From assembly GCA_012862575.1 (NCBI GenBank), contig BLSF01000073.1:121179-185178 (forward strand): DNA of 64,000 nucleotides, read 5' to 3'. Below the pieces are notes generated by a model that saw only the letters and a list, made by a program, of their open reading frames with translations, did not search any database and was not told where the DNA came from. This document shows, in pieces, positions 40,301 to 55,886 of the stretch (position 1 is the stretch's first letter; each line of letters opens with the position of its first letter). Source of the DNA: Parietichytrium sp. I65-24A. Taxonomy: Eukaryota > Sar > Bigyra > Thraustochytrida > Thraustochytriidae. The translations under genes and the position numbers were made by a program.

Positions 40301-43300
40301 ATGCGATCAATTCTCCCAAGTTGGCGATGAGCAAGCTCGAAACCGCGAGTGTGAACGAACTGATTGGCTCGACGTTGGCTACGGCACAGTCACTGTGCGC
40401 CTTATACGCTCGAATGGCTATTATTCTGCTCTTGGACAAGTGGGCAATGATGGATGAGCCGGTAAGAAAATTTATAGCGCATGAGATCATGGAGCTGGGC
40501 GATGAGCATTCCAGCGTCTTGCTGCGGCTTCTAAAGCTGGCGAGTTGTGACTTGACCAATTGGAGCAGCCTATTGTGGGTAATCTCTCCGTCCGACCCGC
40601 CAGGCGACGAATTGAGCACAATTTCCCCGCAATCTGGGGAATCTAGCACCGGAAGTTCGGTTGTGAGAAACATTCCGTTGCTTGATCGTCTCAGTCAAGC
40701 TCTTGAAAGCCTTCTTCAGCGCTTGCCAACGTTTCGGCATAGTGCGGTGGATTGCGTTGGAGTGGAAGTGGCGCGAGCTTCGATGCGAATGTTTTCTTCT
40801 GTGGATTGGAACTCGATGTCTTACACCTCGCGAGCGTTTTCAGAGGCCAAACAACATGACTTTGTGAATGTTTTGAGGAAGTCTCTGGAAATTTATTCCG
40901 CAAGGACAGGTGACAGCCTGGGAGCAGTCGGGGCCATGGCTGCTGCTCACGATGACAACGACGATGAGCTTCGATTCAACGACGCAATTATGATGGAGCT
41001 CCCAAGCATCAGTTTCGCGGTGTGGTTTTCGTCGCTGTTGCTAGAGAATGAAAGTTCTTCCTCGCTTGGTTCTGCGAAGGAGTTGTACGCGATTTGGAGT
41101 CTTGCGATGCATTCTCCGAGTGTGGCGCTGAAGACTATAGCGACTCGGCATCTTACGATAATGCTTCAATCTTTTGCAGGAACAGCCACGTTTTCTGATC
41201 TTTTGAGAATCACTTCGTTGGACCGCATTCAGCGGATGACGAATCGGTTTCTAGCTCGAAGCGGCACCTCCGCCCCTGTCCAGTCTAGATACATGCAGGT
41301 GCTGGTGGAGCTCTGTGCTACCGCGGGCACTGCTAGCAAGGCGCCGGACTCTGGAACACTCGACGACCGACCACTGCTGGACACTACAAGCGCCGCCATG
41401 GCGGACTATGATGACATGATTGGCTCGGTACCACAGTGCGTCTCTGGCGTTCTAACCCAATACCCGATCGAGAATATTCCTGCTGCCCTATTCGAAAGCG
41501 TCTTTGAAGGAAGAGCTGGTTCGCAGGTCGGGGAGGGTGATCAACGTTTACAGGCCTCCAACCTGGTTCTCAGGGACTGTAAAATCGGAGACTTTGTCAC
41601 GCGAGGCCCAGATTGGTCGAGAGGGGACGAAGATGGCGGGGTTGGTTCATTGGGCATCGTGGTGAAAATCGACCCTGACGGCATTATTGTGGACTGGAGG
41701 CTCTTTGGCGCTCAGTCATCTTCAAACCAAGCTGCTGGGTCAAGCCAGGCTACAACGCGGGAAGAAGAACCTTCTATAGTAGTCTCCAGCGCTGTGTCGC
41801 ACGCTCAACATCACACCACTGAAGAGGAAGGTGGAGAGCACACTGAAGACGATGGCAATGACGAGTACTTTGAAGAAGATGCGGACGACGATGGAGAAGA
41901 AGATGAGGAGGAGGACGAAGAGGATATCGACCACATCGACATACGCCAGGTGGTCGAAGGCCATGGCGCGGGGAGCTCGGGTCATCAACAATTGGCAGAG
42001 GGGGTTGTGAATACAACTTCCCCAGTGTCCGCGCGCGAATCTTCGGACAGCTCTGGGGATGCCGGAAATCTGTCTCCAAAGCGAACGTTCAAGTACACCA
42101 AACTTGGAAGCAAGGATGGAACCGAATGGGAAGTCATCATCATCAGACTGAACAACCAGCGCGATCAAGTATGTCGGGTGGACGAGCGCGTTCTTTTGGA
42201 GGAGAGTACAAAAACGGCCGAGGAGAATCGTTTGAAAAAGATGGCGATATCAGATATCACGCCTCCGAGCAAATCTCAAACAGATGAGCAGGCAATAATC
42301 GGCGACCGTCTGCGTCTCGGGGCTGTCTTGTGGATCAACGACTGGAGTGTGCTGCAGTCTGGGCAGGCTGGTGCAAAAGTATTTGGCACCCTGGAGTTTG
42401 CGGAGCTAAAGGCTACAATTGCCGTCTCTGGCCACTTGGTCTCAGAGTCTGTGTTGGAGTTGGTTGAGACTCACATCGTGCGCGGTACTTCAAGGCGAGG
42501 ATGGCGCGCAAGGTTTGGATCGCCTTGTTATCGTCCAGGTACAAAGTATACATTAAAAATTGACCCGGACGGCTATCTAGAGGGCTCCTTTGTGTGTGAT
42601 ATTCCAGACGCGCAAGTGCCATCCTCGATCAATGATTCTCAGTCGAGGGAGAAGCTCTGCAGTCTCCTAGAGACGATAGAAGCGGAAGAAACGAAAACCC
42701 TTGAGAGCGGGCCTCCTCAGAACGAGCCTTCCAATCGGTCGCATCCTATTCTGATTCAACGCGGTGGCCAGGATCGACCGTTTCGAGTGGACATTTCTGC
42801 TTTTGACGATCTCGGCGACGCCGATCTCCTCGAGGCACTCCTTCGTCCTCTCATGTCCCGCGGTGCCCTTGCAGGTGGCGAATCGGTGGACCCGCAGAGA
42901 GCTAGCCGGCGAGCGATGGCTGCTGCATTCAGTCACAGACGCGGATCCCTCGTGCAGGGTTCTGGTGCTGGCCAAGAGGAAGGGTCCGGTGGGGTTCACA
43001 TTTCTGCCCCCAGCAAGGAGGTGATGGCGAAGGTAAAGCAGCTTTCTAAGCAAGTCAAGTGCACTGTGCGTGAAGGAGAAGTTGATCACGTTCTGGAGTG
43101 TAACAGCTTCGCCACTTTCGGTTACGTTTTGAAGAGTCTCAGTATTCACTTTGATCCTGCTGTCCAGGGTATTGTGTGCCTAGGGGAGTCGGTCAAGTCT
43201 GTTGCCGATCCACTGGTGCAATACATGGATACCCGCGACGTGCCTGCTTCAGCTCAAAGCGAGAAGACGATGGAGGAAATAACCATTTCTCTTGTTCCGG

Positions 43301-46300
43301 CCAAGTCAAAAGCATCGAGCGATACTGGCGCGGAGGCTGAGGGCGCACAAGCTCTGGGTAGCGAAAAGACGGAGGCTTTGAAGGTCTATGGGAAGATTCG
43401 TTTCGAGTGCAAGCCATTATTTCGGTTCAATACGGACTGTAAGGCTTCTTCTATGTTTCTTTCGGAAAACAACATGCAGGTCACGTTGAGTCCGTTTGAC
43501 ATGGACAGCCGAGGATTGGCTCTCGGGACAGTAGGGTTCAGCAGTGGTGTGCACTATTGGGAGTTAAAGCTGGAGAATGCCTCTCAAGAGTATGGAAGCG
43601 TGTTCGTCGGAGTCTCCGAAAGACCACCTGGCGTGTACCCTGCTGGGGCAAAGATGTCCTTTTTAAAGCGGTGGGATAGGCCCCCAGCGGCGTATGGATA
43701 CGTGAACTTCCGAGCAACTCTGGAAACGCACATGTCGCAAGGGCAAGGTAGCGAACAAATATATGGCGAATTCTTTGCGATGGGTGATACCGTCGGGATC
43801 TGCATTGATATGGAGCAGGGGATTTTGACATTCTTTTTGGACGGAATTAAGTACGGTCAACACATAATGAAGGACCTTGGCATTGCCTTTTCAGGATCTC
43901 AGCTCCAAGGAAAATGTGATTCCAAGATGGATGATAGTAACCCCTTGACGCTCTTTCCAATGGTCGGTCTCCGTCGGGCGCGAGGAAACAGCGCCAAGAT
44001 ATCCTATAAGTGGATGTCGATCCCGCACCGCTGTCCAGAGCGGCTTATGCAAGATATTTCGTCGGTGAGCCAGCTTCTCCGCGAATGTTGGCTGCCTGAG
44101 GAAGATGGCGACTCCAAACGTCCGCTTCCCAAGTCCTTCCTCGAGCGTGCCTGGAGGCATTATCAGCGGTGGTCTGGGGCGTCTCAGAGCACATTCAGGC
44201 GATACCAATCACGTTCGCACGGCCAGATTGTGGAAGTCGATGTGTCTCCAGGAGCCTGCGAGGCAGCCAGTGGTAAATTTGTGCAGCTAGAAAATGGTCG
44301 CAAAGGTTATCGCGCTGGAGACCGTGTCCGCATTTTACAGAGCTGCGGAAGAGATCTGGAATCCCCTGAAGAGGCTGTAGTTCTGGGGGCGTTTCGTAAC
44401 CGAATCTGGTACAAGGTGGAGTCACAACAAGGTGGGCACGAGGGAATGGAAGAGGGCGCCTCAAGTGCCTGGTATTGGGAGCCCGAGGAGCTGGGGTTGC
44501 TGGAGGTGCTTGAACAAGTTCCCGAGGGAGGGGATGTGCACGAGGAAGGGCATGTATCACAGAAAGTAATTTCCAGCTTGGAGGAGTTTGAAAAGACTGC
44601 GACGGAACAGTGGAGTCTCTCTGCGGATATCCAGCTCGTGACATACATTAACGAGCGATGCAATGCTTTGGGCGTTGATCCCCAAAATCTTCCTCTGGAG
44701 GAGCTGGGTTCGCTCTCGCTATATAGTCCATCTGTGGCCTCTCTGTCAGAAAAGCAGGCTGATAATGAGCACGAGGCCTTTGCGGATCGAGTTGGCGGCG
44801 GGAAGGGAGTTCACGACAAAATTTCCCAGCAGCAGGTCCACGCCCGTGCTTCGGTGCTACGCTTGTTGAATTGCATGGTGCGGAGAACACTGCCATTCGT
44901 GTCTTTTGAAGACATGGACGATTCAGTGATAGGGAAATCACTCGGTTCTGTGGTGAGTAGGCTCCGCAGATTGATCTTTACGTCGACGAAGAAGTCTTTC
45001 TGGGAGAGCACTATCACAGCGACGACCACACCAACTCCTCTTGCCAATGACGAGTACGACGACCCCCCGCAGATTCGGATGGTGAATATAAACCGAATTC
45101 GCGCTGCTCCTCCAAAGCTGGCCTCGATTTCTGACCCTAATGCTCGGCTTGACGCGTCTGTGTTCGGTCAGCTGTTTGGGGACATCTCGAAATGGAGCGA
45201 TCATACCTTACGACGTGCTCACGTCGGTAAAGGTCATGGCGGTCAGAAGCGCGCTTTCAAGGTCAAATTCTTGGGGGAGGGTGTGAAGGATTATGGCGGC
45301 CCATATCGCGCGGTCTTTGAGCAAGTCGCTGATGAGCTTGAAAATGACCACGAATGGCACGACTCTCGCATGGCATGCTTGCTTCCATTGTTTACTCCGT
45401 CGCCAAATCGTTACAACTCCACCGGCGATGTTGGCAGAGACAAGTTCGTGTTCAATTCGAATCCAACCATGCGAAACGGTCCAGCGCTGGGCAAGTACAC
45501 CTTTCTCGGAAAGCTTGTGGGTATGGCTGTCCGCCACGGATTGCGAATGGGGCTTGACCTGCCCACTTTTTATTGGAGGTGGTTGTGCAACTTGCGCATC
45601 TCCACGACCCATCTTGAGGAGGTTGACAAGGTTTTTCTGAACACAATCAGCCTAATATCGAAGCTAGCAGAAAGCGAAGGTAGCAGAGAAGACCGCTCAG
45701 CAGAGGCCATGGCGGAGGCTCTTGGCGTGGAGCGATTTATGGAGATTGCGCTCAGTGACGGAACGATTGCCCCGGTGACACCCGGCGGTTCCGAGATCGC
45801 TCTTGACTTTACAAATGCAAAAACCTACGTGGAAAAAGCTTCAAAAATGAGGCTTTACGAATCGCTGCCGCAGCTCAAGTCTTTCAGGACAGGGCTTGCA
45901 GCAGTGGTTCCCGTGGAACTGTTCTCGCTGTTCACAGAGCGAGAGTTGGAAATCTTAATCTGTGGTCAGACAGAGATGGACATCAATCTCTTGAGGCAAT
46001 GCACCGAGTACGAAGGCGTCACTGCCTCTGACCCTCACGTCCTAATGTTTTGGGAGGTCCTTGAAGAGATGACGGCTGACCAGAGAACGGAATTTCTGCG
46101 ATTCGCATGGGCCCGATCGAGGATGCCGGATTCCGCTGCTGACATGCCGATGAACTTTAAGATCACCGCCCCTACAGGAGGTGCAGTAGGCAGTGCGGAT
46201 GCATATTTACCAAGTGCCCAAACCTGCTTTTTCTCCTTATCGCTGCCGAAGTACACCAGCAAGGAAGTGATGAAAGACAAGCTGTTGTACGCTATCAAGT

Positions 46301-46359
46301 GCACGTTAATGGACAATGACTTCCGGCCCATGGCGGCTGAGGGCTGGGCCGACGTGTAA
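31312..46359 (+). CDS. Giant HECT-type E3 ubiquitin ligase with UIM, UBA, three SPRY and MIB/HERC2 domains
   Basis: A single uninterrupted exon of 15 kb, 5,015 residues from the ATG at 31312 (TTG upstream). Approximate layout: basic/acidic low-complexity N-terminus; UIM at 690-707 ('EEVLLQRALALSLSES'); SPRY1 at 800-945; two UBA-type domains at 2520-2560 and 2589-2625 ('VEKLVEMGFPERWCRKAI'); SPRY2 at 2713-2850; MIB/HERC2 domain from 3426 ('GDFVTRGPDWSRGDEDGG'), with its later part displaced by an acidic insert; SPRY3 at 4026-4210; HECT at about 4640-5015. The HECT N-lobe has 'FLGEGVKDYGGPYRAVFEQV' and 'YTFLGKLVGMAVRHG'. The thioester cysteine is Cys4972 in 'AQTCFFSLSLPKY', 43 residues from the end. 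Size and parts recall HERC1/HECTD4, but I see no RCC1 repeats. It should conjugate ubiquitin and read ubiquitin through UIM/UBA. Substrates unknown. Confidence 0.93.
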   Translation: MIPKSEDAGKLARLCADKNESLDRDALLYLATDRAELQAAQTTLAGARSELFALLNIQPPLLQSEGVDQQRQKKRESEDAAGKETRSAGSPKSGADETSTRRSLPVQVFRKLLQETHKDPLLHNSLLNQEFLLGTPSEEEWEEFEARSKSDEEAGDAQAQQQQGEDGASTGDGQDREKKRKKNNTHSSAKYKKRKNVKAWRRVRHSKLRKLAQVRDADDADGFDLIKSLGELVERAVEDDSKSLHALLITIYTLLCESEQVELSIPDATLAKLQGIELTPGFGENREPKFIAGLLLQSLSCQAHDYIATHGLEAQDAVAGHLLTFLLLFSLLRRFLPNVVKNDFEAAAARNCLRIASANLLNLMYSGIAPATVGLGHAQVSSAIESETSLSAVIGLALGSSSALSGAGVTQGATAETLSIDTSLAAAGNESNNAQTETGSQPKHKSSAGSASEADIEKDGSLFCHKFGALVTKYALLNWQTPDDDSLQHTLASLVNQATLCWTAGFRYFYPLPGQVREVLRELLSSPPKQNVLLLECLCSRITNHDMTEVFVDPDDGAPNLAANLRVEVRQAEKDEEAPTSNETSSQAHDQAKDRQVSGLLDESTKAQTTDTIPPERWFQMVLNSVLLEAEDTIDPKDDFPLHSYPERWGLSSASRTASPTEPIQVESASPSVITSAPSPAAEEFGLDEDDEEVLLQRALALSLSESVEQRERPSGSATPEPSPSPKPPQRRSSSNVFFRLRLLRFLQDCVVDLSGGSSIRQDQDQMLSESDPQLILQEARCAETIELSSDCRTATQKSDKDWGTALASLAMNRKTQRYYRWSVKLNKCEKGHVFIGVAAKQANSSTYLGGDKYGWGLIGTKVLWHNRSKLRSYGSGFRSGDVVHVTLDAVSGTLSYACTRSGKRTDWGAAFRNIGEWCSGENDLHPAIALYQRGDSVTLVSSLGYPASPKAGAAQVPFSTGPTGGEDIGPDWNSQLFTFQPKSDLTTNQLRIARMHALNQAASQASHLLSSDSADHLFTFLSKLQKSKSPTQVAILLSLLERAVATLILWPQKRVRASTALDIMRALMQLLEHLGQTSERALSGVSSDPHDSGKVNVDGAWVFVTASSPAAFHLSTSADPVADGNNISRLVVAKDSNAGVDGVDFGSMGGLCSGNKVDLVGCAQKGSSKTPEKLYSLRVMPGSSFMLGTCKDLQTQKTVDVFAFRDRVHLSDANSSSLDTTAEYSICRRLIGMLSGKLAAVLSKNRCSLKDGEDVTCEEPLGVQSASGDQEVQNDSYDYNELLRSSLLESGFSQRVIDDYISTQVQKYAEGKFLLLLSGYKISLSAERGSERESKPPLIRRSSDGSAFIAMNNVEEWGLETPKDVAFLQSFISGEDSNVEVLDQWMMRFAGKSAFLSVGGAPMRTARLATIASMLMHTGVLQEARLLCAWLEQTTDAARLKDAMDGTQPSRMLISVWRSAQRIIEWAIRSKQQSGSTYSVLAEKILVKVKFLLQLRPGTMPVLEYASLGLQKKMSSSASSASLTSLHGQSYASPPPIGSPTGFESSLRVDTSFLGHAPTHQEEIADISMGKLGSAEFVDRIYAEAQASPEVNPSSPVHDVQKDVTLSVLEQWKRIAKFVTRSNAQQGNARTHSQSLESVVLFVKGQFSVKQLTSLMLDGAWRAIQRAVGLNIISLLVGSRNRSKHITPKLFGCTTNSLASAQVKMAVLEWLSPSLADGFCEPISIEQGGRFAAPGAVSGKTEESGSMFAADRKADGASGGVDGQSAASSQLPQLSPLDFVDLGLVEKEANEQQQQQSAQAKLAEGHFLSNTRGCGAVLQRAVRDAFEQVYSSLAADLERATTANTTDLQLAIIEAWTLTLGREDHEFLSRVGVFRIFQQVLSSARQSLLEVEDGGPDNSGSDTAEAIAAQVARQSHLLTYQRIMKATLRVVHLLASQVVLNNGVLEGSSTTFSLRSPTASLLTNLRTHTKPSGVETLGKSVFEMLFNELETALEGMQSNQKPAETFFVSSFIDDEDYCYQVVMLLYTTSVNGLKTCLQYLSSPERIETLLTAASCNSPRIQHRTLRLLSRLLPSIREIRSVDDDQPVVSRLWEMIAEAYPPSYADKLAQYKLVDTEEHGEQDDVTPNMMAMFGGSRASSERVYEEKVWRACDVVSLVRKLLCSPTWSPSIQEKICETVSSADNPTELWVTMCVLGGQFEQLRVCGKVRFSPALLLKVDDSHMEDMRILTQKSGVLADLGRGPHKDSAKVLLQDLSASSTIASSAKGASGSSGAAYSSGAPGAAASGAPKAKDERGTIRLMSATIDADMLIPVSEVGISTSVVLDQHTKSKIAERFSRIVLDTLTRRNVLVSDNESDASDPATDEEDDNDAASEKSSGPSDKTLYRLFRKNEACLFEANLQTSSLRAIVELIRAGTGKDLLMPGVFRALLELATTLTDTAGMQDVFQLENWWRAVAGEYYRVSDKLAERLKRSVTRAKSESGPPRVSSPGAADPAAGMSGDESSSKPNNTDDEDDDEEMSPQLRAMMELGLGFPKQVCQLALSRCGGEIDAAIEFCLEHAADMDALLETARHQNNARAEEVASSSRRNVIVEKLVEMGFPERWCRKAIEVVGENFENALTWILRNGEMLQAQDERENAERAATAAAAAAAEPPYPPRDSSSETGASSGAHDGTEEPAQTSADNSVTRTLPPGVCVLTSTSGLETVDISEDMTVSVKASSVGFPSVGARDLLLTGGCWYYEVTLLTDKCMQVGWADASFTGNAAEGDGVGDDGRSWSFDGYRRLFWHSRSEAWGRKWRTGDVVCAAIDIDKGEIWFGLNGDYTDGMGCMARGISVNKDFVRGLFPAASLNRTEKMQFNFGHFAKGFRYKPPPSLESYCKPIADAFLSEHNARSHLWFESVAPGTNAQKFFHMHLVEDCMEEEIPSFSSKDAKERFFLNTSTSGSSKSGRPSDGGKPPASLASKKSKRKLKFSLKELADFTRLGVQRDLKEYQICALKDAINSPKLAMSKLETASVNELIGSTLATAQSLCALYARMAIILLLDKWAMMDEPVRKFIAHEIMELGDEHSSVLLRLLKLASCDLTNWSSLLWVISPSDPPGDELSTISPQSGESSTGSSVVRNIPLLDRLSQALESLLQRLPTFRHSAVDCVGVEVARASMRMFSSVDWNSMSYTSRAFSEAKQHDFVNVLRKSLEIYSARTGDSLGAVGAMAAAHDDNDDELRFNDAIMMELPSISFAVWFSSLLLENESSSSLGSAKELYAIWSLAMHSPSVALKTIATRHLTIMLQSFAGTATFSDLLRITSLDRIQRMTNRFLARSGTSAPVQSRYMQVLVELCATAGTASKAPDSGTLDDRPLLDTTSAAMADYDDMIGSVPQCVSGVLTQYPIENIPAALFESVFEGRAGSQVGEGDQRLQASNLVLRDCKIGDFVTRGPDWSRGDEDGGVGSLGIVVKIDPDGIIVDWRLFGAQSSSNQAAGSSQATTREEEPSIVVSSAVSHAQHHTTEEEGGEHTEDDGNDEYFEEDADDDGEEDEEEDEEDIDHIDIRQVVEGHGAGSSGHQQLAEGVVNTTSPVSARESSDSSGDAGNLSPKRTFKYTKLGSKDGTEWEVIIIRLNNQRDQVCRVDERVLLEESTKTAEENRLKKMAISDITPPSKSQTDEQAIIGDRLRLGAVLWINDWSVLQSGQAGAKVFGTLEFAELKATIAVSGHLVSESVLELVETHIVRGTSRRGWRARFGSPCYRPGTKYTLKIDPDGYLEGSFVCDIPDAQVPSSINDSQSREKLCSLLETIEAEETKTLESGPPQNEPSNRSHPILIQRGGQDRPFRVDISAFDDLGDADLLEALLRPLMSRGALAGGESVDPQRASRRAMAAAFSHRRGSLVQGSGAGQEEGSGGVHISAPSKEVMAKVKQLSKQVKCTVREGEVDHVLECNSFATFGYVLKSLSIHFDPAVQGIVCLGESVKSVADPLVQYMDTRDVPASAQSEKTMEEITISLVPAKSKASSDTGAEAEGAQALGSEKTEALKVYGKIRFECKPLFRFNTDCKASSMFLSENNMQVTLSPFDMDSRGLALGTVGFSSGVHYWELKLENASQEYGSVFVGVSERPPGVYPAGAKMSFLKRWDRPPAAYGYVNFRATLETHMSQGQGSEQIYGEFFAMGDTVGICIDMEQGILTFFLDGIKYGQHIMKDLGIAFSGSQLQGKCDSKMDDSNPLTLFPMVGLRRARGNSAKISYKWMSIPHRCPERLMQDISSVSQLLRECWLPEEDGDSKRPLPKSFLERAWRHYQRWSGASQSTFRRYQSRSHGQIVEVDVSPGACEAASGKFVQLENGRKGYRAGDRVRILQSCGRDLESPEEAVVLGAFRNRIWYKVESQQGGHEGMEEGASSAWYWEPEELGLLEVLEQVPEGGDVHEEGHVSQKVISSLEEFEKTATEQWSLSADIQLVTYINERCNALGVDPQNLPLEELGSLSLYSPSVASLSEKQADNEHEAFADRVGGGKGVHDKISQQQVHARASVLRLLNCMVRRTLPFVSFEDMDDSVIGKSLGSVVSRLRRLIFTSTKKSFWESTITATTTPTPLANDEYDDPPQIRMVNINRIRAAPPKLASISDPNARLDASVFGQLFGDISKWSDHTLRRAHVGKGHGGQKRAFKVKFLGEGVKDYGGPYRAVFEQVADELENDHEWHDSRMACLLPLFTPSPNRYNSTGDVGRDKFVFNSNPTMRNGPALGKYTFLGKLVGMAVRHGLRMGLDLPTFYWRWLCNLRISTTHLEEVDKVFLNTISLISKLAESEGSREDRSAEAMAEALGVERFMEIALSDGTIAPVTPGGSEIALDFTNAKTYVEKASKMRLYESLPQLKSFRTGLAAVVPVELFSLFTERELEILICGQTEMDINLLRQCTEYEGVTASDPHVLMFWEVLEEMTADQRTEFLRFAWARSRMPDSAADMPMNFKITAPTGGAVGSADAYLPSAQTCFFSLSLPKYTSKEVMKDKLLYAIKCTLMDNDFRPMAAEGWADV

Positions 46360-48502
46360 GATTTTCAGTTCGTCAGAAATATTGTTGGAACACTCACACA
46401 GGTGGTCATTTTCCCATCTGTTGCTGCAGCGGCCAGACTTGAAACTGGATCCTACACCCTGCACCCTGCACTCTGCAAAGCAGAAAAAGAGTAACATAAA
46501 ATGGATAAAGACGATGATTCTACATTTTTTTTGGCAGGCGTGACTGGCTGACTGTTCACAGTCCATTACAGAATGGTCTTCGGATAATAGAGTAGAGCGA
46601 GCTAGAATCCCTTCATTCATGAACTGCGGCGTGTCCAGAAATCCCTCAGAAATTTATTGCAGCTCGTTCTCTCATCGTATGTTGCACACGAAGCGGTTGA
46701 CGGGTCGACGGTTCCAGAAAGCTATACCTGCTGAGCTTGTGGTGGGAGGATAACTTTGGGCGTCTAAATTGGTTAGCGCAATTAGCTGTCTTGTTTTCAA
46801 AAGGATCAAAAACCAAAAAATTCCATGTGAGTTTTTTGACTGTGAGTTTTGCTAAATTCTAATCTTTTGCTCGCAATGAACACCGTGTCGCTCGAGTTAA
46901 ATAAAGGAAAGGAGTCTCTCCCGGTCGGAAAGGAATCTTTCGAGGCACTGTCGTGAGCGATCGCCGTTGCACATCGATAGATGCTCGAAATTCATTAGCT
47001 TGACGCCATGTCCGCAAATTTGTCTGCGCCACTCTAACCAAGCAATCAGCAGCCAGTCACCAGCGTTGCGCAAGTGAATGTGGGCCTCTGGCTTTCTCAC
47101 TTAGCTTCCACTTGCAGCTCACGTCGTCTACACCAAGTGCTGCACAAGAAAGAAGCTGACAAAACGATCTTGACTCATTCACACGCGAGATGAATCATGG
47201 TGAATCCAGGTGGGCCGACCGAACGTATTGCAATGTATCGCCAAGACAACTTTGCGAGCTGTCGGGCTGAGAGCCGTTGTTTGTCATCGTGACTTGGACT
47301 TGGACTCACGACTTGGACTTGATGATCATCAATCGATCAAGATGGTCCTCATCGCATTTTGAATTCTGAACTTTTAGAACATTCAAAATGTCAAAAATGG
47401 GCTGGGGGCATTGATTGACATCGTTACTTGAAAAGGATTCCAAACTGAAAACTGACTGAAAACTGCAAAGTGGACAAGTCTTTCTTCGATGTTTTAACGA
47501 TTGACTGTATTGACTGACTGTCCTATTCGACTTATTCGACTGCCCAAATTGGCTCACCTCGTCAAGAGTAGTACCGTAAAGGAAATTGCTATATGGGCTT
47601 CTAATGGATATCTAACTCACAGGTAGAAATGCCGAAAACGACCGCTCTTGAATAGTATTGAATTATATTGACTGACGACCACCATAAGGTTCTTAAGCTG
47701 ATGTCAGCGATATATAGCGATATTGGTTAGCATCTCTATTCCCCGTCTCCTCATTACCGCTACATACGCATGTTAGTAGAACCTCCGCTAGTATCCAGAA
47801 TTGCCTTGCTAGGCGAAATCATAACCATATCATAGTCCTCGTTAAAGTAATGCAAGTATGGCTTCCTACACAGTTGCCTAACCAACATATAGCTCTAACA
47901 CTAGCAATCCAAGTTCGCAACCGCCTCAACCTGCGAGGAGTCTTATCCGCCTCCCAGCGTAAACGCTAGCAGTAGCACAGTCTTCTTCTTTCTCTCTCTC
48001 TCTCTTTTGCTGTGTGGGAACAATCAATCCTCAAACGCTTTGCGCCACTTCTTTCTTTCTTTCTTTCTCCCGGGAGAAGGCAGGAGAAGTGTCCGCGCGC
48101 AGTCGCGTACAGTAGCATAGAAGGGTGCGCTGGTGGGGTGTGGGGCGTCTAAGCCAGGGCGTGCGGCGCGTTTGCTACAGGGCGCGGCGCAGTGGCGGGG
48201 AGCTTCGCTTGTGAGTGGTGTGAGGAAAGAAAGAAAAGAAAGAAAGAAAGTCACGCGGGAAGAAAGTCTCGGTGCGAATTCGGGTGCCTCGGGGACGGTG
48301 TTGGTCGTTTTAAAATCAGGAACATTGGTGTGAAATAAATTCAAGCTGTCGCGCGAAGATTGCTACGAAATTGGGCTCTTGATTTAGATAGGGTTTTCTC
48401 TCTTTCAGAGAGCTGGGAAGAAGAAGCGAAAGTTGTGTTGTTCCGGCCGGAGCCAAGTCCTGTGAGTGTAGGTAGTCCTTCCTCACCAATCCATACACAG
48501 CA
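46360..48502. other. 5' flank of the kinase-phosphatase gene and 3' flank of the HECT gene
   Basis: No gene is supportable in these 2.1 kb. After the HECT 3' UTR come a GACTTG repeat (47291-47321) and a TA-step-rich island (about 47560-47960, with GTAGTACC at 47567). Then there are CT, CTTT and AAAG microsatellites (47990-48006, 48050-48068, 48224-48250), ending about 250 bp before the ATG. Confidence 0.5.
48050..48250. repeat. CTTT and AAAG tetramer arrays in inverted orientation
   Basis: CTTT units at 48050-48068 and AAAG units at 48224-48250 are mutually complementary and about 155 bp apart. Together they can form an inverted-repeat stem in the presumed 5' UTR/promoter of the kinase gene. 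Confidence 0.8.
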
Positions 48503-51500
48503 ATGCTGAGATTCTTCAAAAAATCGTCAGGAGGACGCGGCCACCAGAGGGAAGATGTGCCATCGGCGGAAAATTTACCAAATTCTGCATCAAATTCAAC
48601 TTCAAATTCGCCGGCGTCACCGTCGTCCAGGTCTGGTGGCATAAGATTGCCCTCTGCGCTGCCTCCGGACATGACTCCTCCGGGAGAAGAGCTCTCCAAC
48701 ATGGTTCCGCTCTCCATGGGACTTGATGAGGCGGCGCATCAAAAGAGACCGGCATCTAGACCGTTCTCGCCGCCTGGAAATGCACCGAAAAGAGTGGGTC
48801 GACCCACAGGCCGGCCCGTGGGGAAGCAGGATGGCGTGTTTGACTCAGACGACGAGCTTGATGAGATCATGGAGGCGCAGGCGAAGCAGAACTCTGCGCG
48901 CTCTCCCATTTCCAAGGGTAAAATGAAAGTGGACAATGACTTTGGCGCCGACGAAATCTTGGACGATGACGATGATGATGATGATGATGACGAGGAGATG
49001 GAGCACAAAGGCGGCGGCTCTTCTGGCGCAGCAGAGCCAACGCTTAAGCGCGACAAACTGCGCGGTCTGCAGATCAGGACCGACAACAAGAAGAAGCAGG
49101 ATAGCGACTCGGATGCATCCTCCTCATCATCATCTTCCTCCTCGTCATCAGGGTCAGACGATGACTCCGAACTTGAAGACCTGGACGATCTTGTCGACAT
49201 CTCCGAAGACCGTGGACTGTTCAGCGGAGATCAGGAGCGCGAGGAGCGCGAGGAGATTGTGCGCAGCAATTTCGACGTGCTCTGCCAAGTTCCATTTTTT
49301 GCCCAGTTCCCCAAGGAACATCAGGTCCAGCTATTTGAGGAATTGCGCGTCGAGCACTACCGTGATGGCGATCTCATCGTAAAGCAGGGCGATAAGGGTG
49401 ACCGCATGTATGTAATCATCGACGGAGAGGCTGTGGTCTGGCGTGTCGAACCCAACGGTGATTCTCGTGATATCACTCACTTGTACTCTAATGACTATTT
49501 TGGAGAGCTCGCGCTCGTATACGGCCAAGCGCGTAACTCGAACGTGTCGAGCATTGGACCCACAGTGGTAATGTACCTTTCCAAGCCTAGCTTCGAAAAG
49601 TTCGAGAAGATCCGTGTGTACATGATTGTGCAAAAGATCCCGCTTCTCAGCAAACTTCCGAGTATGGAGATGCAGATTACCATTGTGCGAAAGCTCAGCT
49701 CAGTTATTTTTGAGAAAGGCGAGGCCGTGGTGCGACAAGGCGACCCTGGAGATGCATTTTACCTTATCAGTAAAGGCTCGGCGGTTGTGGAGGAAAAATC
49801 TGGCGAAGTGTCTACCCATCTTTACGAAGGGCATACGTTCGGGCAGATGGCTCTTTTGTCCGGAGCACCTCGTCTGGCTACTGTGCGTGCTCGCGAGCAG
49901 CTGATTTGCATGAAACTTATGGCTGCCGACTTCCAAGAGCTGATCAAGCAAAACAAAGAGTTCAACAAGCTTCTCACATCAGACGACCAGATGATTCGTC
50001 GGCGTAGATCCAAGCGCGACGCTCGAAAAAATCGCAAGGCAGCTGGTTCGTTTGATTCTATCGGAGGGAGAAGGTTTTCGCACGACTCGGGGCTTACTGC
50101 GGGGAAAGGCTCCGCGGCGTCGATGTTGGCGAGCGGCGAAGAAGGTACCCACAGTGGTGGCCATCACCACAGACGGAGCTCGCTCGGAAGCGCAAGTGTG
50201 CACTCAAACAACAATTCCGGGCGCCAGTTGCAGCAACAGCTCATTGAAAATACCAAAGTCGACAAATCATCGCGGGGTGGTCACAAGGTCATCAACGGGT
50301 TCTTGCTCCAGAAAGATATCGGTCGCGGGACCTTCGGAAAGGTCAAGCTTTGCGTGCATGAAAAGACAGGAGATCAATTCGCGATCAAGATCATCGACAA
50401 GAGTCTGATCAACCGCAATGAGATAGTTTCAAAGCACGCCCCCGGCCTCAGTGAGATGAGGCAGGAAGTCGCCATCATGAAGCGTCTTCGCCATCCAAAC
50501 ATCGTGAACTTGATTGCTGTCATTGATGACCCCGCAGCAGAACATTTGTACATCATCACCGAGTACTGCGAGAACGGGGCGATCATGGAAGGTCTTGAGG
50601 ATAACAAGCCGCTTCCTGAAGCCACTGCAAGGGCATACTTTCGAGACATCCTCCTTGGTTTGCAATATCTCCACCACATGGGAGTGATTCATCGAGACAT
50701 CAAGCCAATGAATCTTTTGCTTACCAAAGACTGTGTAGTCAAAATCGCCGATTTCGGTGCCGCTCGCATTGTCGTGGGAGGTACCAAGTGGATCTCAGGT
50801 GTGACAGGAACCCCAGCATTTATGGCACCCGAGCTACTTGTGGAGGATTCTGAGGTCTACGACGGGCCAGCAGTCGATCTGTGGTCTTGTGGTGCCACGC
50901 TCTTCATGATGGTGACAGGTTCCCCCCCTTGGATGTCTGATGATGAGATCAAGCTCTCCAAGAAAGTCAAGAATGACGAGCTCACCTTCCCATCTGACTG
51001 GAACAAGCGAAACTATTCGCCTCACTTGAAGAATTTGATCTCCCAGCTACTCGTCAAAGACCCTAAACAGCGTCTCGGACTCAAGGAGACAATGTGCCAC
51101 GACTGGGTCACCGAGGAGGGAAGCGAGGAGCTTGCATGGGTGGACGAAGAATATGACGCTGCCTTGTACGGCGTTGAGGCAACCATGACCACGGAGGAGG
51201 AGCAAGAAGCTGCTATTGATCAACTTCAGTCTGTGCCGAGCAGCTCCTTCTCTCCAACTCCACTTTCACCGTTTACTGGGGAGTCCAGCACTCCCGGCTC
51301 GGGCCGGAAGAAGCGACGGTCTGCAAGGGACTCCATTACAGAGGTGGATCTCGACAATCTTGACGGCGTCGTGAACGTAGACGAATCTGGCTCCGAAGAC
51401 GACGACAATGAATCGGAATACAGTGTGAACAACCAGTACGATTTTCACAGAATGACTCACCGTCCTTCGCAGGCACCTCGCGCAACGTCTGATGATAATG

Positions 51501-52612
51501 CCGGCACCTCTTCAGCGACGCACCAGATGTCAAAAACAACCTCTTCGAACTCTAGCGCTGAAGTGGTGGACCCCTCTCTTTTGGTTTCCAGCGCAAAAGG
51601 AAAGAAGGTTCAGTGGGTGGGGTGCAGGTATGGTCTCGCGAAGGACCAAAATAAGCGCGCCAAGATGGAGGATACCACCTGCATCATTCCAAAGCTGGTC
51701 GCAGCCGGGAAAGAATCCTTTTTCTCCACAAGCAAATCGCATACCTGCTTTTTCGCCGCTGTGTATGACGGCCATGGAGGTGATCTTGTCTCCAATCTAT
51801 TGAAGGAATCGCTGCACAGATCTATCGCGGCTCAGGAAACCTTCCAATTTGACGATCTGGAGCTACTGAGAGAGGCCATCATCCGTGGGTCAGTTGAGTT
51901 TGACCGTCAAATGCTTCACACTGCTGCGACTTACTTGAACGAACACCAGAAGCGAGTCTCCGCAGGTACTGCGCGCCAGGGTCTACTTCGAACGAAAGGA
52001 GACCGACCAGAGGACGAAAGTGCACAGAATCAATACCGAAAGGCTGGCTCAACGGCTTGCATGATGTTTTTGTCCAACTCCAAAAAAGGGGACGGAAGGA
52101 CCTTGACCATGGCCTGGGCTGGTGATACCCGAGCTGTATTGTGCCGTGGGGGAACCGCAGTCCCTCTCACCTTTGACCACAAAGCCAGCAACGAAGACGA
52201 ACGAGAGCGTATTCGCAACGCGGGTGGCACAGTGGATCGAAAAGGGCGAATTGACGGCACGCTGGCGGTTTCGAGGTCCTTTGGTGACATTATGCACATC
52301 GGTTTGGACATTGCCGCGATTGCGGCCATGAAGCGCACCGGGAAATCCCCGGAGGACGATGCACAGATCGAAGAGGGCATCGTGATCCCAGTTCCTGACA
52401 TTACCACCACACACTTGATGCCAAACGATGAATTTGTCATTATCGCTTCCGACGGGCTTTGGGATGTCATGCCAAACGAAGCGTCTGTCAATTTTGTAAG
52501 ACAACAGCTCAAGATGCACGAGGACGTGCAATTGGCTGCTCAGGCGCTTTGTGAGAAAGCCGTAGAGCGTTCTGTGGATAATATTAGTATCATCGTCATC
52601 TCTCTACGATGA
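48503..52612 (+). CDS. Cyclic-nucleotide-domain protein kinase fused to a PP2C phosphatase
   Basis: One exon, 1,369 residues. The N-terminal ~250 residues are low complexity (Asp/Glu and Ser runs near 150 and 200). CNB1 spans about 265-375 with cassette 'FGELALVYGQARNSNV'. CNB2 spans about 378-483 with 'FGQMALLSGAPRLATV'. The kinase spans about 595-870 and has 'IGRGTFGKV', the lysine in 'FAIKIID', 'VIHRDIKPMNLLL', 'KIADFGAAR' and 'GVTGTPAFMAPE', so it looks active. Its sequence feel is CaMKK/LKB1-like more than PKG-like. After a Ser/acidic linker, a complete PP2C spans about 1035-1369 with 'KMEDTT', 'AVYDGHGG', 'AGDTRAVLCRGG', 'VSRSFGD', 'ASDGLWDV' and 'SVDNISIIVI', keeping the metal-binding aspartates. 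It is a soluble signalling enzyme, likely cAMP/cGMP-responsive, combining opposing activities. Convergent with the lipase-like gene. Confidence 0.93.
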   Translation: MLRFFKKSSGGRGHQREDVPSAENLPNSASNSTSNSPASPSSRSGGIRLPSALPPDMTPPGEELSNMVPLSMGLDEAAHQKRPASRPFSPPGNAPKRVGRPTGRPVGKQDGVFDSDDELDEIMEAQAKQNSARSPISKGKMKVDNDFGADEILDDDDDDDDDDEEMEHKGGGSSGAAEPTLKRDKLRGLQIRTDNKKKQDSDSDASSSSSSSSSSSGSDDDSELEDLDDLVDISEDRGLFSGDQEREEREEIVRSNFDVLCQVPFFAQFPKEHQVQLFEELRVEHYRDGDLIVKQGDKGDRMYVIIDGEAVVWRVEPNGDSRDITHLYSNDYFGELALVYGQARNSNVSSIGPTVVMYLSKPSFEKFEKIRVYMIVQKIPLLSKLPSMEMQITIVRKLSSVIFEKGEAVVRQGDPGDAFYLISKGSAVVEEKSGEVSTHLYEGHTFGQMALLSGAPRLATVRAREQLICMKLMAADFQELIKQNKEFNKLLTSDDQMIRRRRSKRDARKNRKAAGSFDSIGGRRFSHDSGLTAGKGSAASMLASGEEGTHSGGHHHRRSSLGSASVHSNNNSGRQLQQQLIENTKVDKSSRGGHKVINGFLLQKDIGRGTFGKVKLCVHEKTGDQFAIKIIDKSLINRNEIVSKHAPGLSEMRQEVAIMKRLRHPNIVNLIAVIDDPAAEHLYIITEYCENGAIMEGLEDNKPLPEATARAYFRDILLGLQYLHHMGVIHRDIKPMNLLLTKDCVVKIADFGAARIVVGGTKWISGVTGTPAFMAPELLVEDSEVYDGPAVDLWSCGATLFMMVTGSPPWMSDDEIKLSKKVKNDELTFPSDWNKRNYSPHLKNLISQLLVKDPKQRLGLKETMCHDWVTEEGSEELAWVDEEYDAALYGVEATMTTEEEQEAAIDQLQSVPSSSFSPTPLSPFTGESSTPGSGRKKRRSARDSITEVDLDNLDGVVNVDESGSEDDDNESEYSVNNQYDFHRMTHRPSQAPRATSDDNAGTSSATHQMSKTTSSNSSAEVVDPSLLVSSAKGKKVQWVGCRYGLAKDQNKRAKMEDTTCIIPKLVAAGKESFFSTSKSHTCFFAAVYDGHGGDLVSNLLKESLHRSIAAQETFQFDDLELLREAIIRGSVEFDRQMLHTAATYLNEHQKRVSAGTARQGLLRTKGDRPEDESAQNQYRKAGSTACMMFLSNSKKGDGRTLTMAWAGDTRAVLCRGGTAVPLTFDHKASNEDERERIRNAGGTVDRKGRIDGTLAVSRSFGDIMHIGLDIAAIAAMKRTGKSPEDDAQIEEGIVIPVPDITTTHLMPNDEFVIIASDGLWDVMPNEASVNFVRQQLKMHEDVQLAAQALCEKAVERSVDNISIIVISLR

Positions 52613-52889
52613 GTGTTTCCTTTCTGGAGGAGTTTTCGAACAATCTGAATCTTGAGGAGAAATTTGAAAACTTGAGAGCTTTTCTACTCACATCAACGAA
52701 CAAGATATATAAATAAAATAGAAATAAGGAGACTGAAAAATCCTTAAAAGAAGAAAAAGCACAGCAAATATTCTAATTAATTACATCTCGAGTTGAATCT
52801 CGCTCCCGCAAGTACACTACATTGCCAGATCCAGTCAGGCACGCTACGACTACAATAATGTTCTACAGCGGCAAAGGTTGCCATTCTTG

Positions 52890-54185
52890 TTACAAATGCG
52901 CGGCAAGGGAGGAGCTAAAGAGTTTGTATCTGGCCAAGATTGTCCTCTTTTGGGACCGGGTCATCAAAAGTCTGTGAATAACTGTGATTGCTACCGTCAC
53001 AAACGTTGAAGACATGACCATGAGCCGGATAAAGCCAACTTCAAGTGCTTTCTGAAACGGTGATAGCGGAATTGGCTCTCCAAGCATGAGTTCTGCCACA
53101 TTATGCAGGAAGTGAGCGCGAATCGCCCAGCCCAGCTGGTCAACGATGCCGAGCTCTCCAGGAGGCTTGATGGCGCGATTCTTGGCCTGGAGCTGGGACT
53201 CGAAGCCAAGCCAATAGAAAAGCTCTTGGACAAAGTCACCTTCAATGTAAATGTTTTCGTGCGAAAGCACATTCTCGAGCACGTCAGCTTCGAGTTGTGA
53301 GGAGCGTACCCAGTTGGGCGAGGAAAAAGAGCGAGTATGCCACAAGGTGTCAAAAGCTGGGCTGTATTGGGCAACCAGGTGTTGAGCTCTCGCTCCGCCT
53401 TTGCTGTGGCCCGCGGATATGGCTTCTGTCGCATTCGCAAGCCAGGTCGTGAGGCGTGCGTCAAACATATCTGTTCCTGCGATGGCCCAGCCCTGGTGCA
53501 GGCGAGAGGATTTGTTGTGATCTACCAAGTTGGTTCGAAGCGCCCCAAGTAGATCTCGCGGAGAATTCCACCGCGTTCCACGGTGCGCGACTGCCACTAG
53601 ATCGCCGATGCGCATAAATAAGGCCGCGTTCACGGATCCCATAGACACGTACTGCCAGCAAAGGATGCCGGAATGGCATTCCCAGGGCATGCTGGTTTCC
53701 GAGGACGGCACTTCCTTGACAGTCACCCCCAGCGCCACAGACCGAAAAGCGATCTCCATCTGCGCATGTTCGTGGTCATACACGAGCGCCGAAAGCTCGC
53801 TGCCGAGCCTGTCCCAAAACTCGGGCTCATCCGCATCGCACATCCCGCCGGCGCGGTACTCTCTTCGCGCTGCCGTGCGCAAAGACAATGTCGTCCAGTC
53901 CTTCTCCCGTAACACCGAACTAGCCAAGTCAATCTTCGGCACCAAACCTGCTGGAATTCGACCGCTTTCATCTCCCTCGCGCTGCCAGCCGCCCAAGATC
54001 GCCACCGATTCAAGCCCGAGAGAGGCCATGTGTGCGATGGTGTCTTCCACGATCTGGTGCGCAAAGTGAGACTCTGGCAGAACGCACAGCAGCAGCAAGA
54101 CCACCGGACCCACGAGCCAGTGCGGCTGTCTCCGCAGCGCAACTATCACCACAACATTTAGAACCACAAGCCCTGCCCAATGCAT
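52890..54185 (-). CDS. Lipase-like alpha/beta-hydrolase with membrane anchors
   Basis: One exon, 431 residues from the ATG at 54185. The N-terminal ~38 residues are strongly hydrophobic (VVVIVAL... VVLLLLCVLP), a signal anchor or two short membrane passes. The hydrolase core is about 130-300: 'GDLVAVAHRGTRWNSPRDLL' corresponds to the lipase class 3 'FRGT' strand, and 'ISAGHSKGGARAQHL' is a GxSxG nucleophile elbow with Ser261. A second hydrophobic helix lies near 385-410. The catalytic Asp and His cannot be fixed by eye. It is probably a membrane-bound lipase or esterase; the exact substrate and family (lipase 3 or DUF2974-like) are uncertain. Confidence 0.7.
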   Translation of the reverse strand: MHWAGLVVLNVVVIVALRRQPHWLVGPVVLLLLCVLPESHFAHQIVEDTIAHMASLGLESVAILGGWQREGDESGRIPAGLVPKIDLASSVLREKDWTTLSLRTAARREYRAGGMCDADEPEFWDRLGSELSALVYDHEHAQMEIAFRSVALGVTVKEVPSSETSMPWECHSGILCWQYVSMGSVNAALFMRIGDLVAVAHRGTRWNSPRDLLGALRTNLVDHNKSSRLHQGWAIAGTDMFDARLTTWLANATEAISAGHSKGGARAQHLVAQYSPAFDTLWHTRSFSSPNWVRSSQLEADVLENVLSHENIYIEGDFVQELFYWLGFESQLQAKNRAIKPPGELGIVDQLGWAIRAHFLHNVAELMLGEPIPLSPFQKALEVGFIRLMVMSSTFVTVAITVIHRLLMTRSQKRTILARYKLFSSSLAAHL

Positions 54186-55886
54186 TCTTCCAACCTGTCT
54201 GTCTTGTCTATCTTTCTATCTATCTTTCTATTCTCCCTTTCCCCTTTTCAAAGTTCCCCTTTTCCCCAACGCTCCAGTTTCGCAATTTTCAGTTAATATA
54301 AGTGCCTTGCCCACCGTCGAGTCAGTTTGAGTCAGTTGAGTCAGTTGAGGAAGCGTGCCCCACAGCTGCAGCTCGTTCAGCTTCAACTTCAGGTACGATA
54401 TCGGCTATTTCAAATTCGGCCGTTACAGTTTCTCCCTTCAAAGGCTCTAAGCTTATTGAAACGACTGAGGGTCCCCGCAGGTGTGCGATTATTTGAGAGC
54501 AGCTGTTAGTCGCTCGTATAGTGTCCCGCGTAAGGAGGGTCCAAATCCTACACTACTGAGATATTATGGATTGGCGTAGGAATGGCACATCCACCGGAAA
54601 GTACCTTATAGGAAAGTAGCTTAGCGTTGAACTGTAATTGACTTTCGAATGATGCGTAATGGTAGGAGTGAATAGCGTATTTGGTACGATTGGAAATCGC
54701 ACACTCTTGACGTGACAAATCAGGGGGATAGAAGTGGATAGACATCAATTAATAAGTGGTGGTAGTTTGGTCAGTAAAGCACGGGTGTAGCGATTGTCGC
54801 GTGGGAGAGTAGTTCGCCTCGTTTGTTCGATTTCATTCGTTGAAGAACTCACCCATATTCTATGATTTTCGATACTTGGGCACTATGTTCTGGTAATAGA
54901 TCTGATGGTAAATACTTTGTAAGCAAACTTACCTTTAAGCTCTCTACTAAAGGTGCAGCTAAGCCTTACCATACTGCGTACTCACGAACGCTACGCTAAG
55001 TTTACAGTAGCGGCTCCGCACGACGGATTCTATCTTGCTACCTTATTCCCTATTAACTGGTACCAGCTGCGAGTGAGGACTTTTCCCTGGACAGCAATCA
55101 TCTTTCGTCACTTTGGAAAGCTCGCGCGTCTCATAGTTTACTCTACCAGCTGCAGTAAGCCGTCCTCTGGTGCATTTCGAGCCACGACATGCCACGACCA
55201 TCACAAAAGTACGCTTAGTCCTCGCTACCGCCCACTCGTACCGTCCAAGCGTACTTGTCGCGACGCCTAAGAGCTTCTATCCTCTCGTCTAGCAATCAAT
55301 TCTGACGTAAGCATTGCATACCGAGAATACTAATTAGTACACACTTGCTGTCTGCGAAAGAGATGGATGATGATGATGATGGAGTTCTACTGTGAAGTGG
55401 AAGAAGTGGAAGAAGTGGAATAGGTGGAAGGTGATTAATTATTAAAGTATGCATAGTTTGTGAGTGTTTGCGAACATTGGAAAATGGAAGATTTGAGAGG
55501 TGTCGAAGAACTTTCCTGTGAGCGTGGCTGATGACCAAAGACCTTTCTCGCTTTCTCGCTTTCTCGCTTGACAGGTCACATATCACATATCACATATCAA
55601 ATATCACATGTCACATGTCACAGGTTACATTTCACAGTTCGCAAATCACAGTTCACATTTCACAATTCACGTTTCACAGTTCACATTTCACAATTCGCAT
55701 TTCGCAGTTTGCAGCTAGCAGTTCATGTTCACAGTCGCCGGTCGCGAGTCAAAGATCGCACGTCACTCGCACATAGTTCGCGTCTCGTAGGTCGCAGCTC
55801 GCAGTTCGGAATCCACAGGTCGAAAAGCGGCCCAGTCTCAGCGAAGATCACCACGGGAGGCGGTTACGGAAGGCGCTGCAGGAGAA
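54186..55886. promoter_or_regulatory. Divergent promoter region with TATC, GAAGTGG and TCACA repeats and a large TA-step-rich island
   Basis: No gene supported. The lipase side holds a TATC/TTTC array (54205-54232). About 54490-55290 is the longest TAG/CTA/TAC/GTA-rich island in the window. The zinc-finger side holds GAAGTGG (about 55392-55425), CTCGCTTT (about 55543-55568) and a long TCACATA/TTCACAGT array (55575-55725) that turns into degenerate GTCGCA units up to about 55830. Confidence 0.5.
55575..55725. repeat. TCACATA / TTCACA(G/A)T tandem array
   Basis: About 150 bp of roughly eight-base units drifting from TCACATA to TTCACAGT to TTCGCAGT, ending about 160 bp before the zinc-finger ATG. 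The open frame through it is purely repetitive and not taken as a gene. Confidence 0.9.

Follow-up and report, generated by a model that had tools for sequence, protein, structure and literature searches.

A Parietichytrium reading frame joining two CNB domains, a CaMKK-type kinase and a PP2C phosphatase belongs to a conserved stramenopile family

Results

The window that we analyzed is a 64,000-nucleotide stretch of a Parietichytrium sp. I65-24A contig, and its forward strand carries a frame that is open from stop to stop at 48476-52612 (1378 codons), with the first ATG at 48503 and TGA as the stop. The whole reading frame (48503..52612, +) encodes 1369 residues and is kept without an intron; no open run exceeded 299 codons in 300 base shuffles of this interval. 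Pfam placed two cNMP_binding domains, Pkinase (603-869), and PP2C (1043-1358) on it, all far above the cut-off and all in a single open frame, which bears out the claim of the earlier note that two cyclic nucleotide-binding (CNB) domains, a kinase, and a PP2C follow one another in one exon. All NCBIfam matches were below cut-off, and the N-terminal stretch (residues 1-265; 48503..49297, +), rich in Ser and Asp/Glu, has no Pfam match. On a plus-strand scan of 48503-53200, no AATAAA or ATTAAA was found inside the frame, and the sole such signal is an AATAAA 3' of the stop (52712..52717, +). The structure model of the protein has a pTM of 0.64 and does not place the domains usably relative to each other; the fold search took in the kinase and PP2C parts.

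The CNB pair was defined by Pfam and alignment. CNB-A (residues 269-378; 49307..49636, +) has the phosphate-binding cassette FGELALVYGQARNSNV at 49499-49546 with Glu and Arg both kept, while in CNB-B (residues 386-494; 49658..49984, +) the cassette FGQMALLSGAPRLATV at 49838-49885 has Gln in place of Glu, the ribose-binding residue of CNB domains. This Gln (FGQ) occurs in 9 of the 33 two-CNB family rows, the window protein included. The CNB-A Arg is followed by Asn-Ser rather than by Ala-Ala or Thr-Ala, and the named oomycete relatives have R-T-A in both CNBs, except for R-S-A in CNB-A of P0023; the R-T-A form is linked to cGMP in PKGs. The earlier note had called the polypeptide cyclic-nucleotide-controlled, and judging from the cassettes this is plausible for CNB-A, where the cassette is complete, but doubtful for CNB-B because of the Gln.

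Linker 1 (residues 495-596; 49985..50290, +) takes in the end of a long helix, followed by a region of low model confidence (516-577), and contains three R-R-x-S motifs. The kinase domain (residues 597-870; 50291..51112, +) has its catalytic motifs complete, as the earlier note had stated: GRGTFG and AIK are there, as are the alpha-C Glu, HRDIKPMN, DFG, and GTPAFMAPE, with the Lys and the HRD and DFG residues intact, and the HRD Asp is kept in all 41 family rows. Of its CaMKK/LKB1-like assignment in the earlier note, the CaMKK part was likewise upheld, as the best PDB match is CaMKK2, the fold agrees, and the kinase lies within the CaMKK clade, a 50-row group with support of 100/99 in the careful tree of 68 rows; by PDB match and tree it is thus not of the AGC class to which PKG belongs. 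PKG resembles the window protein in that CNBs precede its kinase and differs in its kinase class, in having no PP2C, and in CNB pairs that fall outside the clade of the family.

Linker 2 (residues 871-1034; 51113..51604, +) is acidic and Ser-rich, with low model confidence from residue 904, and includes a post-kinase stretch, TTEEEQEAAIDQLQ (residues 896-909, helix from 898; 51188..51229, +), that resembles the TEEE element found after the kinase of animal CaMKKs. CaMKK1 and CaMKK2 therefore share the kinase clade, the fold, and this element with the window protein. Alignment by eye with the animal CaMKKs P0178, P0171, P0124, P0119, and P0137 showed neither their C-terminal calmodulin-binding/autoinhibitory segment nor the Arg-Pro insert of vertebrate CaMKKs, so that the protein is CaMKK-type by its kinase domain only. 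We know of no CaMKK that has CNB and PP2C domains.

The PP2C/PPM phosphatase domain (residues 1035-1369; 51605..52609, +) was recognized by Pfam, fold, and alignment. All of its expected metal-binding motifs (MED, DGHGG, GDTRA, GTLAVSRSFGD, SDG, and DN) are present, as the earlier note had stated, and the aspartates are intact, which together with the fold places it in the PP2C/PPM group; DGH is kept in 41 of 41 family rows.

Among 351 sequences examined, the full CNB-CNB-kinase-PP2C order was found in 32 others and a partial order in 8. Named members come from oomycetes, from a chrysophyte, and from a brown alga, and a further one belongs to a chytrid assembly that is doubtful; some carry database names such as "CAMKK/CAMKK-META" or "cGMP-dependent protein kinase," and two with the same order, P0016 and P0034, each bear the name of a single MMETSP transcript. 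The protein search scored the 7985 candidates sharing most words, and the two listings of matches cover the best 120 of 737 and the best 120 of 571, so the label "stramenopile" does not imply absence from plants, animals, or alveolates. Most family members form one clade, and in careful trees, with the rows given below left out, the window protein has the same relatives around it whether its kinase, its CNB pair, or its PP2C is compared. On this sequence evidence, the window protein is a member of a conserved stramenopile family in which the catalytic residues of both enzymes are intact. Oomycete members, such as Saprolegnia P0012 and Phytophthora P0025, share its order, its CaMKK-type kinase, the intact kinase and PP2C residues, and its clade, but their kinase-PP2C linkers are longer (423 and 616 residues, respectively, versus about 165), both of their CNBs have R-T-A, and their CNB-B lacks the Gln.

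The earlier note would have given up its reading had the same order turned up widely in described families, and this came about by half: the whole order recurs in 32 of the 351 sequences, while oomycete catalogues count kinases with PP2C and CNB domains but do not dissect them (PMC3019232, PMC10925823). Nowhere in the literature searched are proteins of this order treated as a family; the architecture was not found in the thraustochytrid literature searched or in the searched passages of PMC10072465, PMC4524716, and PMC9581015.

The land plant type of protein, with the order PP2C-CNB-CNB-kinase, also occurs in stramenopiles, and two copies are encoded in the same genome as the window protein. 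Plant PKG/Arabidopsis PP2C19 (AT2G20050), together with relatives from stramenopiles and green algae, likewise has a CNB pair, a kinase-like domain, and a PP2C in a single polypeptide, but in these proteins the PP2C comes first, the CNBs belong to another clade, and the HRD Asp is missing from all 26 readable rows, no named one of which is a land plant. The one plant-order copy that was tested has PKG1 as its best PDB match; the window protein has neither the N-terminal PP2C nor the PKG-like AGC kinase of this type.

For the tree of each enzyme, 28 of the 41 family rows were chosen. The careful kinase tree used 68 of 87 rows, leaving out P0038 and P0039 from the chosen 28, P0170, seven CNB-KIN rows, and nine more rows that were long or near-duplicates; in the quick tree, P0170 and the seven CNB-KIN rows were nested in the family. 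Of the 98 PP2C rows, 20 were left out of the careful trees (the nine top short matches, P0243, P0247, P0249, P0258, P0260, P0281, P0250, P0296, and the family rows P0037, P0039, and P0040). Fourteen PP2C rows were nested in the family in the quick PP2C tree, namely, the top short matches apart from P0240 (eight of nine), P0243, P0247, P0249, P0258, P0260, and P0281, while P0037 and P0040 had no resolved placement there and neither of the wider quick trees put P0039 inside the family. Most nested kinase-only or PP2C-only predictions are short, lie on short contigs, and are probably fragments, although P0281, on a contig of 434,601 bases, may be a genuine PP2C that has no kinase. For the CNB tree, eleven near-duplicates and P0034, with its weak first CNB, were left out, so that 21 of the 33 two-CNB family rows were used; the tree has several long PKG branches.

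A single clade for the CNB pairs of both architectures was rejected (AU p 0.000186). Union of the PP2Cs of both families gave p 0.0097 with L019, a long-branch sequence from the same genome, and p 0.068 (0.0679) in a careful tree from which L019 was also removed. With L019 in the tree, even the PP2Cs within the family failed to form a single clade (p 0.030) because L019 adjoined P0016, and with L019 placed inside the family, the value of 0.0097 may reflect L019 and not the question of union. The PP2C domains thus leave the choice between independent fusion and rearrangement undecided.

Discussion

Two readings would make the architecture something other than a family assembled on its own. That two adjacent genes were read as one, through the gene model or the assembly, is barely credible: the low-complexity linker of about 165 residues between kinase and PP2C speaks for it, but the frame is uninterrupted and free of internal poly(A)-like signals, 32 other sequences, two of them named MMETSP transcripts, share the order, and for Phytophthora sojae PMC10925823 (figure S2) reports five kinase-PPM genes, whose domain order may differ, as single transcripts. 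Very unlikely, too, is one ancient fusion in which the plant-order protein was permuted into the order seen here. The three domain types are the same, both families occur in stramenopiles and side by side in this genome, and the PP2C constraint is not rejected once L019 is removed; against this stand the rejection of a common CNB clade, the CaMKK kinase here versus PKG1 as best match of the plant-order copy tested, and the rejected PP2C union with L019, itself lying inside the family there. Rearrangement from a plant-order protein is accordingly disfavored by CNB pairs and kinase class, with a PP2C result that depends on sampling. Of the two origins that the earlier note had proposed, independent assembly of two kinase-CNB-PP2C families is favored by the separate CNB clades and by kinase classes that differ, as judged from one plant-order copy.

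We consider it about an even chance that the window protein is a bifunctional signaling enzyme, in which a tandem CNB sensor, a CaMKK-type kinase, and a PP2C on a flexible linker set a ligand-dependent balance of writing and erasing phosphate. A ligand on CNB-A, with CNB-B altered or structural, would switch the kinase from a restrained to an active state or back, this control standing in for the calmodulin-binding segment of animal CaMKKs, and the tethered PP2C could take phosphate off the same target or off the kinase itself. The likeliest target would be the activation-loop threonine of AMPK/SNF1 kinases, to which CaMKKs add phosphate and from which PP2Cs remove it in other organisms. The protein would in that case act as a two-way switch on this loop, set by the ligand. 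Two AMPK/SNF1 kinases are encoded in the genome, and three further kinases of its own (L002, L004, and L006) fall in the CaMKK-like group of the quick tree and could serve AMPK instead, counting against this proposal.

It is somewhat unlikely that the CNB pair senses neither cAMP nor cGMP and binds another small molecule, for example, a nucleoside, or has a structural role. The FGQ of CNB-B, shared among the 9 rows, and the Asn-Ser of CNB-A would suit such a role, and trypanosomatid PKA regulatory subunits, which bind nucleosides, provide a precedent; retention of Glu and Arg in CNB-A and the cGMP-associated R-T-A of named oomycete relatives (R-S-A in P0023 CNB-A) argue against it. Less probable still is that one catalytic half alone matters, the protein being chiefly phosphatase or chiefly kinase and its other half a docking or regulatory platform. 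Plant-order proteins speak for this, with kinases described as inactive in Phytophthora infestans (PMC3019232) and no HRD Asp in the 26 readable rows, but in the family of the window protein the HRD Asp and DGH are complete in every row. For phototropism in Arabidopsis, the PP2C of the plant-order protein sufficed by itself, CNB and kinase being dispensable (PMC11775391), so a list of parts need not mean coupled function. For rice PKG, of the same plant-order family, reciprocal control by cGMP is reported in a secondary source (PMC11638329), which would be a precedent, though from the other family, for the self-resetting switch suggested in the earlier note.

A bifunctional enzyme, as we propose, would fit a broader picture that we regard as improbable but worth stating, namely, a second, independently assembled kinase-phosphatase chimera, intact in both active sites, that would write and erase the activation-loop phosphate of AMPK/SNF1 kinases in a direction chosen by a cyclic nucleotide or a related nucleoside, and so be an energy-signaling rheostat built into one covalent chain and conserved across stramenopiles.

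To our knowledge, it is unusual for a single eukaryotic chain to combine a kinase with an opposing phosphatase and to keep the active sites of both intact. The kinase of the plant-order protein, the one that has been studied, is degenerate in its 26 readable relatives, whereas the CNB-CNB-CaMKK-PP2C family keeps both sites. Two kinds of kinase-CNB-PP2C protein, lumped in database names and catalogues, can now be told apart, and the oomycete kinase-PPM proteins that are "bifunctional" by their domains may include pseudokinases. Since so broad a family has kept the two active sites, a ligand-set balance of writing and erasing within one molecule would be directly testable.

Results and discussion

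The gene at 48503-52612 (+ strand) occupies a stop-to-stop frame of 1378 codons (48476-52612), in which the first ATG (48503) and a TGA stop delimit a product of 1369 residues; when the bases of this interval were shuffled 300 times, open runs reached 299 codons at most. Pfam places two cNMP_binding domains, a Pkinase domain (603-869, 3.4e-70) and a PP2C domain (1043-1358, 1.8e-57) in this product, bearing out the earlier note's reading of two cyclic-nucleotide-binding-type (CNB) domains, a kinase and a PP2C within a single frame. These domain identities and the intact catalytic residues are plain at the sequence level. The sole AATAAA/ATTAAA on the + strand of 48503-53200 is at 52712. Nearby in the window are a single open frame of 5042 codons (31231-46359, +), HECT ubiquitin ligase-like by eye in its C-terminal part, and a convergent 441-codon frame (52890-54215, -) that contains GHSKGGA and is lipase-like by eye.

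We found that the gene is one further member of a CNB-CNB-CaMKK-PP2C family that is real, conserved and little described. A search with residues 255-1369 scored 7985 candidates, of which 110 proteins passed E <= 1e-20, the closest being 57-58% identical to the window protein over those residues. In a set of 351 sequences (the window protein, those 110, and the best 120 of 737 and best 120 of 571 from two further searches), our own domain profiles recovered CNB-CNB-KIN-PP2C in 33, window protein counted, CNB-KIN-PP2C in 5 and KIN-PP2C in 3. Named members come from oomycetes (Saprolegnia, Aphanomyces, Phytophthora, Peronospora and Nothophytophthora), one chrysophyte and the brown alga Scytosiphon, and P0016 and P0034 are named as MMETSP transcripts. 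Two further members (P0011, P0015) belong to an assembly labelled Batrachochytrium salamandrivorans BASA81; since P0011 sits within the window protein's clade in the kinase and PP2C trees, and P0015 likewise in the PP2C tree, the chytrid label is probably due to contamination. Each of the eight members scanned with Pfam showed the kinase, the PP2C and one or more CNBs (P0044, also scanned, is a non-member). The HRD and DFG Asp residues and the PP2C DGH motif are kept in 41/41 family rows, the kinase Lys in 40/40 readable rows and the SDG Asp in 37/37 readable rows.

Weak response-regulator-receiver-like stretches occur in the kinase-PP2C linkers of P0034 (residues 791-888, 21.5 bits) and P0031 (residues 707-795, 16.8 bits; Pfam cut-off 30.2), and a PDB search was unhelpful. 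P0044, P0045 and P0048 have a CaMKK-like kinase followed by one CNB, with a precomputed receiver domain in all three; that of P0044 exceeds the Pfam cut-off and lies C-terminal to the CNB.

The plant-order arrangement, PP2C-CNB-CNB-kinase, was recovered by our profiles in 27 of the 351 sequences, with no land plants among the named rows, and two such pseudokinase genes share the genome (G000; C, contig) with the window gene: L017 (G000:C3:858474-860396) and L018 (G000:C53:176512-178497). In contrast to the family, plant-order kinases have lost the HRD Asp in 26/26 readable rows and, by eye, in L017 and L018. This loss agrees with Judelson and Ah-Fong, who described two plant-order P. infestans kinases as inactive and remarked that this holds in plants too (PMC3019232), and it sits awkwardly with the finding reported for rice PKG that cGMP stimulates its kinase activity and inhibits its phosphatase activity (Shen 2019, via PMC11638329 and PMC11775391). 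For Arabidopsis PP2C19, the PP2C domain by itself is enough for phototropism (PMC11775391). Another locus of this genome, L013 (G000:C9:723781), encodes a protein with two CNBs after its kinase, the PKG order reversed.

In a literature search, with most subscription journals outside its reach, proteins of CNB-CNB-CaMKK-PP2C order were nowhere described as a family. In the catalogued P. infestans kinome, four kinases (AGC, CAMK and OTHER) carry a PP2C and eight (AGC and CAMK) a cNMP-binding domain (PMC3019232). A P. sojae study describes five PPM proteins that combine kinase and CAP domains and terms them bifunctional on domain grounds, each having a single transcript according to a figure legend (PMC10925823); the uniform HRD Asp loss suggests that any plant-order proteins among them are not active kinases.

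The earlier note weighed an independent fusion against a rearranged ancient one, and the CNB pairs and kinase class point clearly to separate assembly. In the CNB-pair tree, which contains several long PKG branches, 21 family rows fall into a single clade (100/100) and 23 plant-order rows into a second (98/99); a clade uniting the two is rejected (AU p 0.000186). The kinase is CaMKK-type in the family, as opposed to PKG1-like in the one own-genome plant-order copy tested (nearest PDB kinase PKG1, 4.1e-28). The PP2C line does not settle the matter either way: without L019, a long own-genome row, plant-order rows (100/100) and 25 family rows (97/93) each form one clade and their union falls short of the rejection threshold (p 0.0679), while with L019, which then falls inside the family, the union is rejected (p 0.0097) and the family PP2Cs themselves fail as one clade (p 0.030). 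The family thus apparently arose separately from the plant-order fusion.

The first CNB (CNB-A) retains Glu and Arg in its cassette (FGELALVYGQARNSNV) and the second (CNB-B) has Gln in place of Glu (FGQMALLSGAPRLATV), and we therefore take CNB-A as the likelier sensor. This Gln is common to 9/33 two-CNB rows: besides the window protein, they are the eight top matches of the residues 255-1369 search. Named oomycete relatives have R-T-A cassettes, except for R-S-A in CNB-A of P0023, and the R-T-A form is linked to cGMP in PKGs.

The genome also holds 29 cyclase-domain matches, 16 PDE matches, one AMPK beta-type domain and, by eye, two PKA-R-like proteins (L020, L021). Two adjoining AMPK-alpha-like kinases, L003 and L007 (G000:C3:175859-179731; T-loops LRTSCGSPNYAAPE and LRTNCGSPNYAAPE), have AMPK alpha-2 as best PDB match (2e-114 and 2.3e-105). 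In other organisms, CaMKK-beta phosphorylates AMPK T172 and PP2Cs dephosphorylate AMPK and SnRK1 (PMC4033248). Together, these parts and precedents lead us to propose, as an inference on activity, ligand, coupling and target alike, that the CNB pair of the window protein would gate the kinase and that the tethered PP2C may act on the same activation-loop target as that kinase.
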